NCBI GenBank assembly: GCA_007123695.1
Contig: SLGN01000352.1
Span: forward strand, 1 to 11,745
Source of the DNA: Verrucomicrobiales bacterium
GTDB lineage: Bacteria; Verrucomicrobiota; Verrucomicrobiia; Verrucomicrobiales; DEV007
Direction of reading: 5' to 3'
DNA length: 11,745 bases
Shown in pieces: positions 7,019-11,745 of the stretch. Positions within the stretch are counted from its first letter, which is position 1, and each line of letters opens with the position of its first letter. The translations under genes were made by a program, and so were the position numbers. The notes beneath the pieces were generated by a model. That model saw only the letters and a list, made by a program, of their open reading frames with translations. It ran no database searches and was not told the DNA's origin.

Positions 7019-8161
7019 ATGAAAAGCCTCATCGACCACCCCCGCGTTGCTATCGTCGGCCTCGGCTTCGGCGCCGAGTTCATCCCCATCTACCAGCGGC
7101 ATCCCCACGCCGAAATGGCCGCGATCTGCCAGCGCAACCCCGAGTCCCTGCGGGAAATCGGCGACAAGTTCGACATCGCGAAGCGCTACACCGACTACGA
7201 GGAGCTGCTCGCCGATCCGGACATCGACGCGGTGCACATCAACACGCCCATCCCCGACCACGCCGCCCACACTCTCGCGGCGTTGCGCGCCGGCAAGCAT
7301 GTCGCCTGCACCGTGCCGATGGCCACTACCGAGGAGGACTGCCGCGCCATCGTCGAGCTCTGCGCCGAGACCGGGCTGCGCTACATGATGATGGAGACGG
7401 TGGTCTACGCCCGCGAATTCCTCTACATGAAGGAGCTCTACGACCGGGGTGAGCTGGGCAAGCTCCAGTTCCTGAAAGCCAGCCACCAGCAGGACATGGA
7501 CGGTTGGCCGGGCTACTGGCCGGGCCTGCCGCCGATGCACTACGCCACCCACTGCGTCGGTCCCGTGCTCGGGCTGGGGCGGCACGAGGCGGAGTATGTG
7601 AGCTGCTTCCCCAGCGGCACCATCCGCGAGGAAATGCACGGCTGCTACGGCTCGCCTTTCGCCGTGGAGACGACGCACATCAAGTTCGCCAACAGCGACC
7701 TCAGCGCCCAGGTCTACCGTTCGCTCTTCGACGTGGCGCGCCAGTACCGCGAGAGCTTCGAGGTCTACGGGTCGCAGAAGGCGGTGGAGTGGCCGCTGGT
7801 CGAGGGCGAGCCCCTCGTCGTGCACACCGCGAAGCGGCCCGAGCCCGAGATCCCCGAACGGGTTGAGTGCCCCGACTACGGCCACCGTTTGCCCGAGGAG
7901 ATCGCGCCCTTCACCCTCGGCGGCGTCTACGGCGGCGACGACGGCGAAGAGCACCTCAGCTTCACCCAAGGCGCTGGGCACGGCGGCTCGCACCCGCACC
8001 TCGTCCACCAGTTCGTCGAGCTGCTGCGCGGCGCGGGCGAGGGGTATCCCAACGCCGTGCAATCGGCGAACATCACCCTCTGCGGCATCCTCGCGCACGA
8101 GAGCGCGCTGAAGGGCGGAGAGCTCGTGCGGCTGCCGGAGTGGAGCCGGGCTGGAGAATGA
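7019..8161 (+). CDS. Gfo/Idh/MocA family NAD(P)-dependent oxidoreductase
   Basis: Members oxidise or reduce sugars, inositols and related polyols in the cytoplasm. The 380-residue protein opens with a Rossmann fold: RVAIVGLGFGAEF (GxGxxG-type, 9-21), then YTDYEELLADPDIDAVHINT and the cofactor-loop position HVACTVPMATTEEDC (94-108). Here the usual EKP is replaced by TVP, so the lysine normally implicated in catalysis is absent; this variant recurs in a recognisable subfamily. The C-terminal domain has GYWPGLPPMHYATHCVGPVL with H174 and H178, and GGSHPHLVHQF (332-342). ATG 7019 starts close to the first strand, as usual. The final Glu and stop codons (GAATGA) are the first bases of the flanking inverted repeat. 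The substrate cannot be named from sequence. Divergent from a PAS-AraC regulator; the next same-strand gene encodes a ThuA/heme protein. Confidence 0.93.
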   Translation: MKSLIDHPRVAIVGLGFGAEFIPIYQRHPHAEMAAICQRNPESLREIGDKFDIAKRYTDYEELLADPDIDAVHINTPIPDHAAHTLAALRAGKHVACTVPMATTEEDCRAIVELCAETGLRYMMMETVVYAREFLYMKELYDRGELGKLQFLKASHQQDMDGWPGYWPGLPPMHYATHCVGPVLGLGRHEAEYVSCFPSGTIREEMHGCYGSPFAVETTHIKFANSDLSAQVYRSLFDVARQYRESFEVYGSQKAVEWPLVEGEPLVVHTAKRPEPEIPERVECPDYGHRLPEEIAPFTLGGVYGGDDGEEHLSFTQGAGHGGSHPHLVHQFVELLRGAGEGYPNAVQSANITLCGILAHESALKGGELVRLPEWSRAGE

Positions 8162-8193
8162 CGAATGACGAAACACCCAAATACCCAAGGAAT
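8156..8193 (+). repeat. Left arm of a 38-bp inverted repeat flanking the four-helix-bundle gene
   Basis: The arm reads GAATGACGAATGACGAAA, then CACCCAAATACCCAAGGAAT. Its reverse complement occurs at 8704-8741 with one mismatch (C8174 opposite A8723; 37 of 38) and again at 8816-8853. It is built of short sub-repeats (GAATGAC, ACCCAAAT). The first six bases are the last codon and stop of the dehydrogenase gene. A partial copy, GAATGACGAA, follows at 8206-8215. The span 8194-8247 holds nothing else recognisable. Confidence 0.9.
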
Positions 8194-8247
8194 TTCGGAA
8201 TGCGGGAATGACGAAGATGTCGCGGTCGTTTGAGGTTCCTTCGAGGG

Positions 8248-8610
8248 CTATGAGCCGCTGGAGCGGTAGATTTTTGCGAAGATCAGGTGCAGCTCTTTGG
8301 CTTCTTGCCAGAGAGGGGCGGCTTGGTCCCTGAGGGACGGCACTGCTTTCACAATCATTCTGAGGAAGAATTTCGTCTCCCGCGCCTCCTTTTTGCAGTA
8401 GCCGATTTTCTGACGGAACTCCTTCTTCGAAACCGCGTCGTCCGCTTCGCAGTAGTTGGCCCCGACACTCGTGCCCGCGCCCACCACTTGACTGATCAGT
8501 CGTCGGGTCACGGAATCCTCTGGCACCATTCGAGCAAAGGCGATCACATCCTCGCCAAAGATCGCCGTCCGCTCCTCCAAGTCATAGGGCTTCCCATCCT
8601 CACGTTCCAT
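8248..8610 (-). CDS. Four-helix-bundle protein (S23/TIGR02436 type)
   Basis: The product is 120 residues, usual for the family whose founders are encoded in intervening sequences of 23S rRNA genes; related Avd proteins act in diversity-generating retroelements. Function of stand-alone members is unknown. Visible hallmarks: YDLEERTAIFGEDVIAFARM (helix 1), LISQVVGAGTSVGANYCEAD (residues 38-57, corresponding to the family pattern with S-x-x-ANxxEA), EFRQKIGYCKKEARETKFF (64-82), and a final helix LWQEAKELHLIFAKIYRSS. The surface should carry basic residues suited to nucleic acid. The open frame starts at 8670, but homology begins near residue 9 after the ATG at 8610, so that start is used. It is opposite in strand to both neighbours and lies entirely within the inverted repeats, suggesting it entered or spread with them. 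Confidence 0.92.
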   Translation of the reverse strand: MEREDGKPYDLEERTAIFGEDVIAFARMVPEDSVTRRLISQVVGAGTSVGANYCEADDAVSKKEFRQKIGYCKKEARETKFFLRMIVKAVPSLRDQAAPLWQEAKELHLIFAKIYRSSGS

Positions 8611-8703
8611 CCGAAACCCTCTACCGAATTCCCCACAATCCCGCAATCCCAAATTCGCCCCCTCCCGCATTCAGCTACCGTTTCGAAATTCGGCCATTCA
8701 GCC

Positions 8704-8741
8704 ATTCCTTGGGTATTTGGGTATTTCGTCATTCGTCATTC
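8704..8741 (-). repeat. Right arm, copy 1, of the 38-bp inverted repeat
   Basis: It reads ATTCCTTGGGTATTTGGG, then TATTTCGTCATTCGTCATTC, the reverse complement of 8156-8193 with one mismatch. Two octamers precede it, ATTCGGCC (8688-8695) and ATTCAGCC (8696-8703), and TTCGAAATTC before those. As RNA, the two arms could pair into a 37-bp stem enclosing 510 bases that contain the four-helix-bundle gene. Confidence 0.9.
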
Positions 8742-8775
8742 AAGCCCCCGCCCCTCCAAATCACAAGACTTCGAA

Positions 8776-8815
8776 ATTCAGCCATTCAGCCATTCAGCCA
8801 TTCAGCCATTCAGCC
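8776..8815 (+). repeat. Five tandem copies of the octamer ATTCAGCC
   Basis: Five perfect ATTCAGCC units lead directly into copy 2 of the right arm. The equivalent place before copy 1 has only two units, one diverged. The array is therefore a variable-number tandem repeat and part of a local duplication. Confidence 0.92.
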
Positions 8816-8853
8816 ATTCCTTGGGTATTTGGGTATTTCGTCATTCGTCATTC
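8816..8853 (-). repeat. Right arm, copy 2, of the 38-bp inverted repeat
   Basis: Identical over all 38 bases to 8704-8741, at an offset of 112 bases; the identity continues into CAAGCCCCC on the right. It ends 16 bases before the ATG of the ThuA-domain gene at 8870. The whole of 8611-8869 is repeat-derived or low-complexity sequence; I see no other gene or RNA in it. Confidence 0.92.
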
Positions 8854-8869
8854 AAGCCCCCCGCTCCCC

Positions 8870-9241
8870 ATGGTCTCCCCCTTCCTCCGAATCCTCCTCG
8901 CCGCCATCATCTCTCTCCCGTGCGCCGCCTCCGCGTCACCCATCCGCGTGCTCTTCCTCGGGCACGAGGGCGACGGTCCGGGGCAGGGGTCGCACCGGCC
9001 GCGCGAGATGCACCCCCGGCTCGCGATGGCGCTGGGGCGCGAGGCGATCTACTTCGACTACGTCGCCACCCCCGAGGCCGCCTTCGGCGACCGCGAGCGG
9101 CTCTTCCGCTACGACGCCGTGCTCCTCTATGCCAACCACCAGACCCTCGACCGCGCTCTTTGGCAGAACCTGCGGGACTACGTCGAGCAGGGCGGCGGCT
9201 TCGTCGCGGTGCAGAGCGCGAGCTGGTGCTTCCAGAACTAA
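8870..9241 (+). CDS. Secreted ThuA-domain fragment, 5' part of a broken PVC-type heme protein gene
   Basis: The 123-residue frame begins with a signal peptide, MVSPFLRILLAAIISLPCAA then SASP, with cleavage likely after Ala-Ser-Ala. The mature part starts a ThuA-like (class I glutamine amidotransferase-fold) domain: IRVLFLGHEG, MHPRLAMALGREAIYFDYVA, YDAVLLYANHQTLDRALWQN, YVEQGGGFVAVQSASWCFQN. It stops at TAA 9239-9241, about halfway through a normal ThuA domain of roughly 220-250 residues. The next frame (9242 onward) is in the same phase and belongs to the same multidomain family, so this is most simply the 5' end of one gene disrupted by an internal deletion that left a stop. The fragment alone is unlikely to fold. 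The start at 8870 is fixed by the signal peptide; upstream bases are repeat. Confidence 0.85.
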   Translation: MVSPFLRILLAAIISLPCAASASPIRVLFLGHEGDGPGQGSHRPREMHPRLAMALGREAIYFDYVATPEAAFGDRERLFRYDAVLLYANHQTLDRALWQNLRDYVEQGGGFVAVQSASWCFQN

Positions 9242-11398
9242 TTGAAAGACACCGACGGCGACGGTCGCGCCGACCTCCGCGAGACCGTTCTCAGTGGGTG
9301 GGGCATCCGCGACACCCACGCCGGTCCGTCGAACCTCCGCTACGGCATCGACAACTGGATCTACGGCGCGGTCGGCTACTCCGGCTTCGATGGCGAGGTC
9401 GGGGGCGAGCCGCTGAAGTTCGGCAACGGCATCTTCCGGATGCGTCCCGACGGTTCGGCGCTGGAGTTCCTCCACCAGTTCAACAACAACACCTGGGGCC
9501 TCGGCCTGAACGCCGCCGGCGAGGTCTTCGGCTCGACCGCGAACCGCAATCCCGCCTTCTTCGGCGGCTTCCCGCACACCGGCTACCGCGAAGGCGAGAC
9601 CGGCCCCAGCGCGACGATGATCGCCGACCGCGCCGAGTTCGACCCCGTGACGCCGAACATCCGCCAGGTCGACGCCTTCGGCCAGTACACCTCGGCGGCG
9701 GGCTACGCCTTCGCGAGCTCCGACCGTTTCCCCCCCGCTTGGCGCGACCGCATCGCCTTCGTCGCCGACCCCACCGGCCACCTCCTCGGCCTTTTCGAGA
9801 ACCGGCCCGAGGGCGCCGGTTACCGTGCCGTGAACCGCTCCAGCTTCCTCGCCAGCGCCGACGAGTGGTTCTCTCCCGTCGCCGCCGAGGTCGGCCCCGA
9901 CGGCCATCTCTGGGTCGCGGACTGGTACAATTTCATCATCCAGCACAACCCGACCCCGACTCCCGACCGCGGCGGCTTCGAGGGCGTCAATGGCCTCGGC
10001 AACGCCCACGAGAACCCCCTGCGCGACCAGCAGCACGGGCGCATCTACCGGGTCGTCTGGGAAGGGGCCGAGGGAGTCGCGACTGAGCCTCCGATCGACT
10101 CCCTCGCCGGCGCCACCGACGAGGCGCTTCTCGCCGCGCTCGGGCACGGGAACCAGTTCTGGCGGCTCGCCGCCCAGCGGCTGCTCGTCGCTGGAGGGAA
10201 GACCGACCTCGCTCCCCGCTTGCGGGCGATGGTCGCCGAGGGCGGTGGCGTGTCGGCGGCCCATGCGCTCTGGACCCTCGAGGGGCTCGGCGATCTCGAT
10301 CTCGAGACCCACCAGCTCGCCCTGCTGAAACCCGACGACCCCGTGCTGCAGCGGAACGCCGTCCGCGCCATCCCCGCGACGGAGGAGGGGATGCGGCTCT
10401 TTTTCGACACCGCCTCGGTGCAGTCGCGCGACCCGCAGGTGCGCCTCGCCGCCTTCGTGAAGTTGGCGCACTTCCCCGACCGCGCGCAGGTCGAGCGGGC
10501 CGCCCGCGAGCTGGCGACGCGACCGGAGAATTTCGGGGACGAATGGCTCGCCGCCGCCCTGCAAGCGGTCGGCTCCGGCAAGGTCCAGCGAGGCCCCGCC
10601 AAGATCACCGGGCCGAACCTCTTGCCGAACCCCTCGTTCGAGGAGATCGAGGAAGGCTCGGGCCTTCCGCAAGGCTGGAGCGCCCGCACCTACGCGGGCG
10701 AGGCGACCCACGCCGCCGATTCCGCCGAGGCCCGCAGCGGCGGGCGCAGCCTGCGGATCAGCTCCGAGAGCGGGGCCGACACCAGCCTCTTCGCCCGGGT
10801 GGCGGTGAAACCCGGCACCGACTACCAGCTCTCCGGCTGGGTCAAGAGCGCCGGACTCTCCGGCGCGCGCGGGGCGCAGCTCAACGCCCACGAGGTGCAG
10901 ACGCAGGAGGGAGGTTCGCGCACCGATGCCGTCGTCGGCGACACCGCCGAATGGACGCGCGTCGAGGTCGTCTTCAACTCCCTCGACCGCAGCGAGCTGA
11001 CGATCAACTGCCTCTTCGGGGGTTGGGGCCAGTCCACCGGCGTCGCGTGGTGGGACGACGTGGCGCTCCACGAGATCGAGTACGAGATCCTCGTCGAGGA
11101 GGAGCCCGAACTCACCGAAGGCGACCCCGAGCGCGGTCGCGAGATCTTTTTCGGCCACCCGCTCGCCGCCTGCAACCGCTGCCATGTCGTCGACGGCGAA
11201 GGTGGTTTGGTGGGGCCGGCGCTCGACGGCATCGCCTCACGGCACAGCGAGGACTACATCTACGAAAGCCTCGTCGATCCCCAAGCCGTTATGGCCGAGG
11301 GCTTCCCCGCCGAGGTCTCCCCGATGCCGCCCGCTGGCGTGCTGCTCGACAAGCAGGAGCTGCGCGATTTGATGGCGTATTTGATGACGTTGGAGTAG
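9242..11398 (+). CDS. PVC-type heme-binding protein, 3' part: beta-propeller, HEAT, CBM-like and cytochrome c
   Basis: This 718-codon frame (TTG start assumed, no ribosome binding site) matches the C-terminal two thirds of large secreted proteins abundant in Planctomycetes and Verrucomicrobia. Residues 3-270: propeller of glucose/sorbosone-dehydrogenase type, opening KDTDGDGRADLRETVLSGWG, with RDTHAGPSNLRYGIDNWIYG and HLWVADWYNFIIQHNPTP. About 275-430: HEAT-like helical repeats (ALGHGNQFWRLAAQRLLVAG). About 457-620: jelly-roll, CBM-like domain (NLLPNPSFEE to AWWDDVALHEIE). About 628-718: class I cytochrome c with C644-N-R-C647-H648 and probable distal Met695 in SPMPP. Family members are thought to pass electrons from periplasmic sugar or polyol oxidation. 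It lacks its own signal peptide and the first propeller blades; with the ThuA fragment it forms one gene missing an internal segment. Probably a pseudogene unless that gap is an assembly error. Confidence 0.88.
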   Translation: MKDTDGDGRADLRETVLSGWGIRDTHAGPSNLRYGIDNWIYGAVGYSGFDGEVGGEPLKFGNGIFRMRPDGSALEFLHQFNNNTWGLGLNAAGEVFGSTANRNPAFFGGFPHTGYREGETGPSATMIADRAEFDPVTPNIRQVDAFGQYTSAAGYAFASSDRFPPAWRDRIAFVADPTGHLLGLFENRPEGAGYRAVNRSSFLASADEWFSPVAAEVGPDGHLWVADWYNFIIQHNPTPTPDRGGFEGVNGLGNAHENPLRDQQHGRIYRVVWEGAEGVATEPPIDSLAGATDEALLAALGHGNQFWRLAAQRLLVAGGKTDLAPRLRAMVAEGGGVSAAHALWTLEGLGDLDLETHQLALLKPDDPVLQRNAVRAIPATEEGMRLFFDTASVQSRDPQVRLAAFVKLAHFPDRAQVERAARELATRPENFGDEWLAAALQAVGSGKVQRGPAKITGPNLLPNPSFEEIEEGSGLPQGWSARTYAGEATHAADSAEARSGGRSLRISSESGADTSLFARVAVKPGTDYQLSGWVKSAGLSGARGAQLNAHEVQTQEGGSRTDAVVGDTAEWTRVEVVFNSLDRSELTINCLFGGWGQSTGVAWWDDVALHEIEYEILVEEEPELTEGDPERGREIFFGHPLAACNRCHVVDGEGGLVGPALDGIASRHSEDYIYESLVDPQAVMAEGFPAEVSPMPPAGVLLDKQELRDLMAYLMTLE

Positions 11399-11400
11399 GT

Positions 11401-11463
11401 GGTGGAGCGGTGGAGCGGTGGAGCGGTGGAGCGGTGGAGCGGTGGAGCGGTGGAGCGGTGGAG
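11401..11463 (+). repeat. Octamer tandem repeat GGTGGAGC, seven copies plus a partial
   Basis: Seven perfect GGTGGAGC units and a partial eighth begin two bases after the TAG of the preceding gene. GGAGCGGT, the same octamer permuted, also occurs once at the 3' end of the four-helix-bundle gene (near 8258). Its function is unknown. Confidence 0.95.
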
Positions 11464-11477
11464 TCGGCCGCGACAGA

Positions 11478-11640
11478 ATCGGGACCGAAATCGGGATCGA
11501 TGGGCCGGTTCCATCGCGTGTCGGTCTGCGGCTCCTCCTTCGCCGCCAATTCCGGCGGAGTTGCCCGACCGATCATGGAGACAGCGAAGCGTTTGGGATT
11601 CCTGTCTGCGCAATGGTTCGATCCCGATTTCGATCCCGAT
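11478..11640. repeat. Imperfect 24-bp inverted repeat around a 115-bp spacer
   Basis: The left arm at 11478-11501 (ATCGGGACCGAAATCGGG, then ATCGAT) pairs with 11617-11640 (TTCGATCCCGATTTCGATCC, then CGAT) at 22 of 24 positions. The 115-bp spacer has no plausible gene, but contains two short inverted pairs: CCGCC/GGCGG, 6 bases apart, near 11543-11558, and AGACAG (11579-11584) with CTGTCT (11602-11607). The architecture echoes the inverted repeats round the four-helix-bundle gene. Confidence 0.75.
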
Positions 11641-11745
11641 TTCGATCCCGATCCCGATTTCGATTTCGATTTCGATTTCGATTTCGATTTCGATTTCGAT
11701 TTCGATTTCGATTTCGATTTCGATTTCGATTTCGATTTCGATTTC
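11641..11745 (+). repeat. CGATTT hexamer satellite running off the window end
   Basis: From 11655 to the end there are fifteen perfect CGATTT units; from 11619 to 11654 CGATTT and CGATCC units alternate. The tract grows out of the right arm of the 24-bp inverted repeat. The true length is unknown because the window ends inside it, which probably explains why the assembly stopped here. Confidence 0.95.

Follow-up and report, generated by a model that had tools for sequence, protein, structure and literature searches.

The window analysed here is the whole of contig SLGN01000352.1 (assembly GCA_007123695.1), 11,745 nucleotides (nt) of DNA from a Verrucomicrobiales bacterium. Between positions 8156 and 8741 it carries a gene of the S23 family, which is best known from insertions within ribosomal RNA (rRNA) genes. 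Here the gene stands between two protein genes and is enclosed by an inverted repeat; we call the repeat and its gene a cassette. The features of the locus are these.

7019 to 8161, plus strand: upstream neighbour, a GFO/IDH/MocA oxidoreductase (the dehydrogenase), with its stop codon (8159-8161) inside the left arm.
8156 to 8193, plus strand: left arm, GAATGAC x2.4 (Tandem Repeats Finder, TRF) followed by a ACCCAAAT-type 8-mer repeat (read from the sequence); 37 of 38 positions pair with 8704-8741.
8194 to 8215, plus strand: degenerate inner extension of the left arm, part of a 60-nt inverted pair at 85%.
8248 to 8610, minus strand: S23 (TIGR02436) four-helix-bundle gene, by profile matches and an AlphaFold model; its open reading frame (ORF) may start at 8670.
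8682 to 8703, plus strand: degenerate inner extension of the right arm, part of the same 60-nt pair, with an 8-mer ATTCAGCC array at 8688-8707.
8704 to 8741, plus strand: right arm, with the 8-mer TTGGGTAT at 8709-8726 and the 7-mer TTCGTCA at 8725-8741; 37 of 38 positions paired.
8776 to 8819, plus strand: perfect 8-mer array, ATTCAGCC x5.5 (TRF), running into a second right arm.
8800 to 8861, plus strand: second copy of the right arm, without a gene, within a 71-nt, 93% direct duplication (8688-8758 and 8800-8870).
8870 to 9241, plus strand: downstream neighbour, a ThuA-like ORF at 33.1 bits, just under the Pfam cut-off of 33.4.

A preliminary description of the window had claimed a near-perfect 38-bp inverted repeat around a four-helix-bundle gene, lying outside any rRNA gene and with both flanking genes on the other strand. 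All of this holds. The two arms are complementary at 37 of 38 positions, and weaker inverted similarity extends them to 60 nt at 85% (8156-8215 and 8682-8741). The flank-to-flank inverted score is 37.5, far above the 1000 dinucleotide shuffles (mean 10.0, maximum 17.5). TRF reports GAATGAC x2.4 in each arm, the tandem heptamers of a Coxiella-type intervening sequence (IVS), and in the right arm only the 8-mers TTGGGTAT x2.2 and ATTCAGCC x2.5. The left arm even supplies the stop codon of the dehydrogenase, TGA within GAATGAC; relatives of this protein gene end in other letters. For the enclosed gene, TIGR02436 gives 57.7 bits (cut-off 24) and PF05635 gives 37.6 bits (cut-off 33.8); the AlphaFold model of its product has four helices, with a predicted local distance difference test (pLDDT) score of 95.8. 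Among solved structures, the S23-family proteins 2rld and 2gsc come closest in fold, and Avd (4dwl) ranks lower. Both neighbours are on the plus strand and the S23 gene is on the minus strand. Rfam finds no family at threshold in the window, and no rRNA in 11 loci scanned alongside it, one of which is the window's own.

TIGR02436 genes are common: of the 141 genomes of the class, 99 have them, with as many as 11 copies each, and none of 14 control genomes does. We compared their flanks in two sets of loci. The own-phylum set took the flanks of most TIGR02436 matches listed, strongest first, plus the nearest relatives of the window gene; its 170 loci less 9 with under 200 nt on either side gave 161, of which 160 are distinct, and duplicates of the window locus and locus L210 were also left out. 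The multi-phylum set took one genome per species and the best 80 of 588 matches; 5 of the 80 were dropped for a flank under 200 nt, which left 75 usable. In each case we aligned the upstream 400 nt to the reverse complement of the downstream 400 nt, with a cut at a score of 15, the 99% point of 1500 cross-paired own-phylum controls, whose maximum was 25.5. Inverted scores exceeded 15 in 85 of 160 own-phylum loci and 25.5 in 27 of 160; the same flanks in direct orientation did so in 15 and 5, respectively. PIN genes, our negative control, gave 0/28 inverted and 4/28 direct scores above 15 (28 of the 30 fetched loci had enough flank). In the multi-phylum set, 44 of 75 loci exceeded the 99% point of their own null, and 8 of 75 had a direct score above 15. 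Both sets together (160 + 75 = 235 loci) hold 130 loci with inverted arms above 15. S23 genes outside rRNA bear inverted arms far more often than the controls do, and a chance origin of the arms is ruled out by the shuffles for the window and by cross-pairing for both sets.

The preliminary description had suggested a cassette, a free-living version of an rRNA IVS. That idea stands in so far as the proposed search of related S23 genes did find flanking inverted repeats, at 130 of 235 loci, and empty sites exist (below); what does not stand is the 38-mer as the mark of the element. The window's 17-mer GAATGACGAATGACGAA is present in 10 of 194 genomes of the phylum including the window's own, and no S23 gene lies within about 1.5 kb of it at 27 fetched loci (19 distinct places) of the nine other genomes. 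Since the repeat is present elsewhere without S23 and other cassettes use other repeats, we rejected it as a signature. One genome of the phylum, G205, has 26 copies of GAATGACGAATGACGAA, with no S23 gene near the four places fetched. Another copy of the window's arm sequence is found on contig C221, where an S23 gene is absent from the 2.2 kb examined. An rRNA location of the cassettes was also rejected. Four exact 23S motifs had no match in the 160 own-phylum loci, and two 23S motifs with up to 3 mismatches matched twice in the 235 loci; Rfam recognises neither locus as rRNA. A DNA search of a phage collection returned no match, and a phage origin was rejected as well.

What the arms have in common is their build. 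In a periodicity test that called for 20 or more matches in a 28-nt segment at the best lag (4-20), 81 of 160 own-phylum upstream flanks were periodic (64 at lag 7, 10 at lag 8), as were 63 of 160 downstream flanks (42 at lag 7, 6 at lag 8). Far flanks of the same loci were periodic in 2/157 and 2/156 cases, and the genes themselves in 0/160. The multi-phylum set gave 51/75 upstream, 36/75 downstream and 2/72 in far flanks. At the 38 loci periodic at 7 or 8 on both sides, the two units agree with at most 1 mismatch in inverted register in 29 cases and in direct register in 3; between loci, 34 of 2000 pairs agree. The left units include 71 distinct ones among 83. The arms are degenerate tandem heptamers, sometimes octamers, and the unit varies by locus but is common to both arms of one locus.

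Short repeats of this kind could have come first. On that explanation, S23 is a passenger that settles in pre-existing short-repeat hairpins, intergenic heptamer or repetitive extragenic palindromic (REP)-like, that spread alone. It draws on the 17-mer loci that have no S23 gene nearby, on the existence of a gene-less heptamer hairpin (at locus L428) and on an earlier survey that, in most genomes, ranked heptamers first among repeat classes by abundance (excerpt of PMC4679880). We also examined 148 loci from genomes picked via genes that neighbour a cassette elsewhere. There, 6 of 14 heptamer arrays have no inverted partner and no S23 gene near; of the 8 arrays with an inverted partner, 7 are at an S23 gene, which speaks against a passenger, if weakly, as they come from only 4 loci and 2 sites. 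The arm units are mostly locus-specific and do not form one spreading family, and empty nuoJ-nuoK junctions are only 3-6 nt long and hairpin-free. We consider the passenger explanation unlikely.

The cassettes have a characteristic place. The 130 with arms have a median length of 484 nt, and, with neighbours called by longest ORF, the median distance is 4 nt from the upstream stop codon to the arm (n=109) and 12 nt from the arm to the downstream ATG (n=92). Orientation by longest ORF at 223 loci was with both neighbours in 152, against both in 15 and mixed in 56 (37 + 19); the ratio of with to against was 100:12 in the class-side set and 52:3 in the multi-phylum set. We then counted a neighbour as unambiguous when the ORF of the better strand was at least 1.5 times that of the other strand. 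This gave 79 loci, 66 with, 4 against and 9 mixed; those below 50% GC (n=33) were 30 with, 0 against and 3 mixed. A cassette usually fills the stop-to-start gap and runs in the direction of its neighbours, a bias that fits an element using the host transcript. By Pfam, the flanking genes are NuoJ and NuoK at L130, undecaprenyl diphosphate synthase and cytidylyltransferase (UppS|CdsA-type) at L175, a ferredoxin-type protein (NuoI by position) and NuoJ at L385, and DUF1553 and DUF1501 at L010; a complex I chain-5-type protein lies downstream at L401, and the cassette junctions include NuoK|NuoL. The preliminary description had envisaged a co-transcript with the dehydrogenase that folds into a long stem at the stop codon. 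Such a co-transcript would be unusual here, because both neighbours lie on the strand opposite to the window's S23 gene; most cassettes are co-directional. The predicted minus-strand RNA of 8130-8765 has a fold z-score of -6.3 (20 shuffles).

The comparison of orthologous sites that had been proposed revealed empty ones in three settings. The nuoJ-nuoK gap is 472 nt with its cassette in genome G226 and 3-6 nt in the four other genomes searched of its genus; these empty junctions carry no hairpin. In genome G028, the gap from the gfo/idh gene to the ThuA-like gene is 91 nt, versus 708 nt in the window, and both neighbours are kept. Nostoc sp. C052 has the cassette on one plasmid; two further plasmids, with 95% and 86% identity in their matching parts, lack it and have about 190 bp of other sequence at the cassette point. 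No target-site duplication is evident by eye at the window, at nuoJ|nuoK or at the Nostoc site, where about 190 bp of the target are missing. By eye, no cassette adjoins the dehydrogenase gene in 25 orthologs of the genus, and a hidden Markov model (HMM) scan of the ortholog loci found no S23 gene apart from a weak 19-bit match in L278.

Occupied sites show turnover too. Among 30 nuoK loci fetched from the family (best matches of 40 genomes), 7 have S23 cassettes, in three different junctions. The nuoI|nuoJ site is occupied in five genomes, with S23 proteins 49-68% identical and arms that differ: within-locus arm scores are 19.0, 18.5, 13.5, 8.5 and 8.0, and between-locus scores 3.0-10.5. In genus g4, species that share 97% identity in a kinase have, at one site 5' of its gene, two different cassettes whose arms differ as well; two more copies at this site are broken, and no S23 gene is seen in the remaining 22 of 30 loci fetched. 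Relatives have empty sites, and one site can hold cassettes with different arms. At the kinase site we also noticed two short hairpins without a gene, one with heptamer arms of the GTACGAA type (L428, 996-1088) and one with GxxExxY-like arms, judged by eye (L423).

Sites common to related species, such as nuoI|nuoJ in five genomes and the g4 kinase site, indicate that vertical inheritance is common. They would also suit an S23 gene that is not mobile at all, a host gene inherited with its operon and controlled in its expression by the flanking hairpin. This is hard to square with the patchy presence of the cassette, with its very different junctions and up to 11 copies per genome, or with two 95% identical plasmids of a single strain of which one has the cassette and the other does not, and we regard it as very improbable.

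If the cassette moves, an enzyme acting in trans could move it. The fold of the S23 protein resembles that of Avd, the accessory protein of diversity-generating retroelements (DGRs; cd16375 / PF05635-like): against our model, 4dwl has template modelling (TM) scores of 0.69/0.76 and a Foldseek E of 0.45, and the DGR ribonucleoprotein 8ube has TM 0.59/0.63 and E 0.93. A resemblance of PF05635 to Avd is also stated in an excerpt of PMC10053308. The S23 protein might thus recruit a reverse transcriptase in trans to copy the cassette RNA, and the co-directional bias suggests an RNA stage. Unlike a DGR, though, the window's genome (80% complete) has no match to the reverse transcriptase domain RVT_1. 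The same is true of 68 of the 99 S23-bearing genomes, including one with 11 copies, and S23 density is uncorrelated with reverse transcriptase density (rho 0.13, p 0.17, 119 genomes). A reverse transcriptase in the same genome is therefore not supported as a requirement, and we hold copying of this kind to be quite unlikely.

Another candidate is a Y1 transposase (IS200/IS605 or RAYT-type) that moves a transposon-like hairpin in trans as single-stranded DNA. S23 density and Y1_Tnp density are weakly correlated (rho 0.29, p 0.0014, in 119 of the 141 genomes, 22 unlisted S23-free ones being left out), and 28 or more Y1_Tnp matches were counted in the window's genome. On the other side, 11 of 99 S23-bearing genomes have no Y1_Tnp match (9 of 99 have neither this nor RVT_1), the strong orientation bias would not be expected, and the terminal sequences vary from locus to locus, which leaves a transposase without fixed ends to recognise. 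The same absence of conserved terminal inverted repeats, with 71 of 83 units distinct and the repeats mostly locus-specific, sets the cassettes apart from DNA transposons and miniature inverted-repeat transposable elements (MITEs). Like MITE- or REP-type hairpins, they have short inverted repeats in intergenic DNA; unlike these, they enclose a gene, usually in the direction of its neighbours, and lack conserved ends. Movement by a Y1 transposase is the least probable of the explanations we weighed.

The cassettes are widespread. The multi-phylum loci come from Clostridia, Flavobacterium and relatives, Proteobacteria, Acidobacteria, Planctomycetota, Chloroflexia, Nitrospirae, Methanophagales archaea and others. 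Twelve plasmid records carry a relative, and we examined six. Heptamer arms flank the S23 gene in all five cyanobacterial plasmid loci, from Nostoc and Anabaena, with inverted scores of 28 to 36 and one perfect 36-nt arm pair; the Bernardetia plasmid locus has a score of 11. On two of the plasmids (L441 and L442; Nostoc, Anabaena) the S23 cassette sits between cas2 and cas1, antisense to both, and in Nostoc sp. UHCC 0870 the cas2-cas1 junction is without an S23 cassette.

The closest known system is the IVS of 23S rRNA. As an excerpt of PMC4990558 describes it, the Coxiella IVS combines a 28-bp stem with an S23 ORF and with tandem heptamers differing from strain to strain, and it is processed by RNase III. 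The cassettes share with such IVSs (Leptospira is named in the same excerpt) the S23 ORF as a loop, complementary ends and tandem heptamers beside the ORF, as well as a patchy distribution and, in the usual cassettes, an ORF in sense with the host transcript. Because the Coxiella rRNA IVS has the same build, heptamers included, S23 cassettes look like IVS elements living between protein genes. They are not rRNA IVSs proper, because they lie between protein genes and not in an rRNA helix, and the window copy, antisense to its neighbours, differs in orientation too. Unlike 23S IVSs, they also have an arm sequence that differs at nearly every locus, and many copies per genome. The S23 cassette outside rRNA looks like a widespread kind of insertion element, and it is best filed as an intercistronic variant of the IVS kind. 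We give a probability of about two in three to the reading that the window copy belongs to a widespread class of IVS-type hairpin cassettes located between cistrons, each with an S23 gene between inverted arrays of degenerate heptamers or octamers.

By analogy with 23S rRNA, the host transcript of a co-directional cassette, the usual case, would form a long stem whose loop is the S23 reading frame, a stem that RNase III could cut. Cutting would make the insertion cheap for the host, and S23 protein would be made from the host mRNA. The arms may be continually rewritten by slippage and arm-to-arm copying, with complementarity kept while the sequence drifts. The formation of the RNA stem, its cutting by RNase III and the route of movement are all inferences.

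Several results weigh against this reading. Arm pairs above the cut are lacking at 105 of the 235 S23 loci, and the window's own genome has 7 S23 copies, of which 5 are testable and only 1 of these has strong arms. In two of the five nuoI|nuoJ cassettes (8.5, 8.0), within-locus complementarity no longer stands out. The sole usable archaeal locus, at 14.5, falls short of the cut, which leaves the evidence bacterial. The window copy is itself atypical: its S23 gene is antisense to both neighbours where that of an IVS is in sense with the host transcript, and the account by sense RNA has no direct fit to it. The orientation of neighbours was judged from ORF length; the longest-ORF caller can be misled by antisense ORFs in GC-rich DNA, and it wrongly scored the window copy as co-directional. 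Finally, a test of arm mismatches for G-U bias (136 loci) counted 193 of the G-U type versus 253 of the A-C type (p 0.005); by locus, 36 favour G-U and 55 A-C, with 45 ties (p 0.06). Selection for wobble pairs in a sense-RNA stem was rejected, as the test gave the opposite tendency. DNA-level copying of the arms, by slippage and template switching, is the likelier cause of their renewal, since arm-to-arm copying in DNA would give complementarity without wobble.

Inverted arms are not confined to S23 genes. GxxExxY (TIGR04256) loci of the class, L211-L240, have them too, with units of about 9 nt such as ACCACGAAGGGCACGAAGG (unit judged by eye). Their inverted scores exceed 15 in 17 of 30 and 18.5, the 99% point of their own cross-pairing, in 14 of 30; direct scores exceed 15 in 4 of 30. 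GxxExxY genes are possibly a second class of hairpin cassette. A broader reading, which we offer tentatively and hold to be somewhat less probable than its opposite, joins these observations. S23 cassettes would be a bacteria-wide class of mobile elements without fixed ends, whose inverted short-repeat arrays are made or rewritten at each site so that only complementarity is inherited. The rRNA IVSs would be the minority that landed in rRNA helices, and GxxExxY a second such class.

Degenerate heptamers are familiar from cyanobacteria, where they occur as heptanucleotide short tandemly repeated repetitive (STRR) sequences and in the tRNA-Leu intron and the stems of RNase P RNA, some of them reportedly in stem-loops. 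The cassette arms, as degenerate heptamers, resemble them, and we know of no S23 gene described with STRR heptamers. Intergenic heptamer arrays adjoining genes are also a likeness to the TAACTGA repeats of Beggiatoaceae, which are one fixed heptamer, almost all in direct arrays; the text of PMC4679880 makes no mention of S23. Among the papers listed by open-access literature searches and judged by title and start of abstract, we found none on S23 genes outside rRNA with inverted heptamer arms; subscription papers fall mostly outside this search.

The window has other repeats and some irregular genes. The ThuA-like ORF covers profile positions 12-89 of 209 and ends at 9241, and the same frame continues as a PVC-type cytochrome gene whose first part is missing (its profile match starts at 96); the stretch 8870-11398 is either a gene that was broken or fused or a mistake of the assembly. 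Domains of the PVC type point to Verrucomicrobiota. TRF finds a perfect 8-mer array, GGTGGAGC x7.9, at 11401-11463 and a hexamer array, TTCGAT x21.5, at 11617-11745, reaching the contig end. Near the contig start, before dnaA, positions 152-961 match the putative transposase Y2_Tnp (PF04986). In genus relatives (L279, L283, L284, L285 and L292), a short inverted motif, AACAGGGTT...ACCCTGTT, was seen by eye 3' of the dehydrogenase; it is perhaps a terminator or a REP-like hairpin.

On the reading that these are intercistronic IVS-type cassettes, a common family of small, solitary bacterial genes, which 99 of the class's 141 genomes possess, gains a physical context and a testable mechanism. The intervening sequences of rRNA would no longer be a peculiarity of rRNA but one instance of a general insertion. 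Ends that keep their complementarity while changing their sequence would be hard for repeat-finding software to detect, and they would need an explanation. Cassettes in nuo and uppS-cdsA-type operons would mean that several hundred bases of hairpin and gene are tolerated there, or serve mRNA processing.

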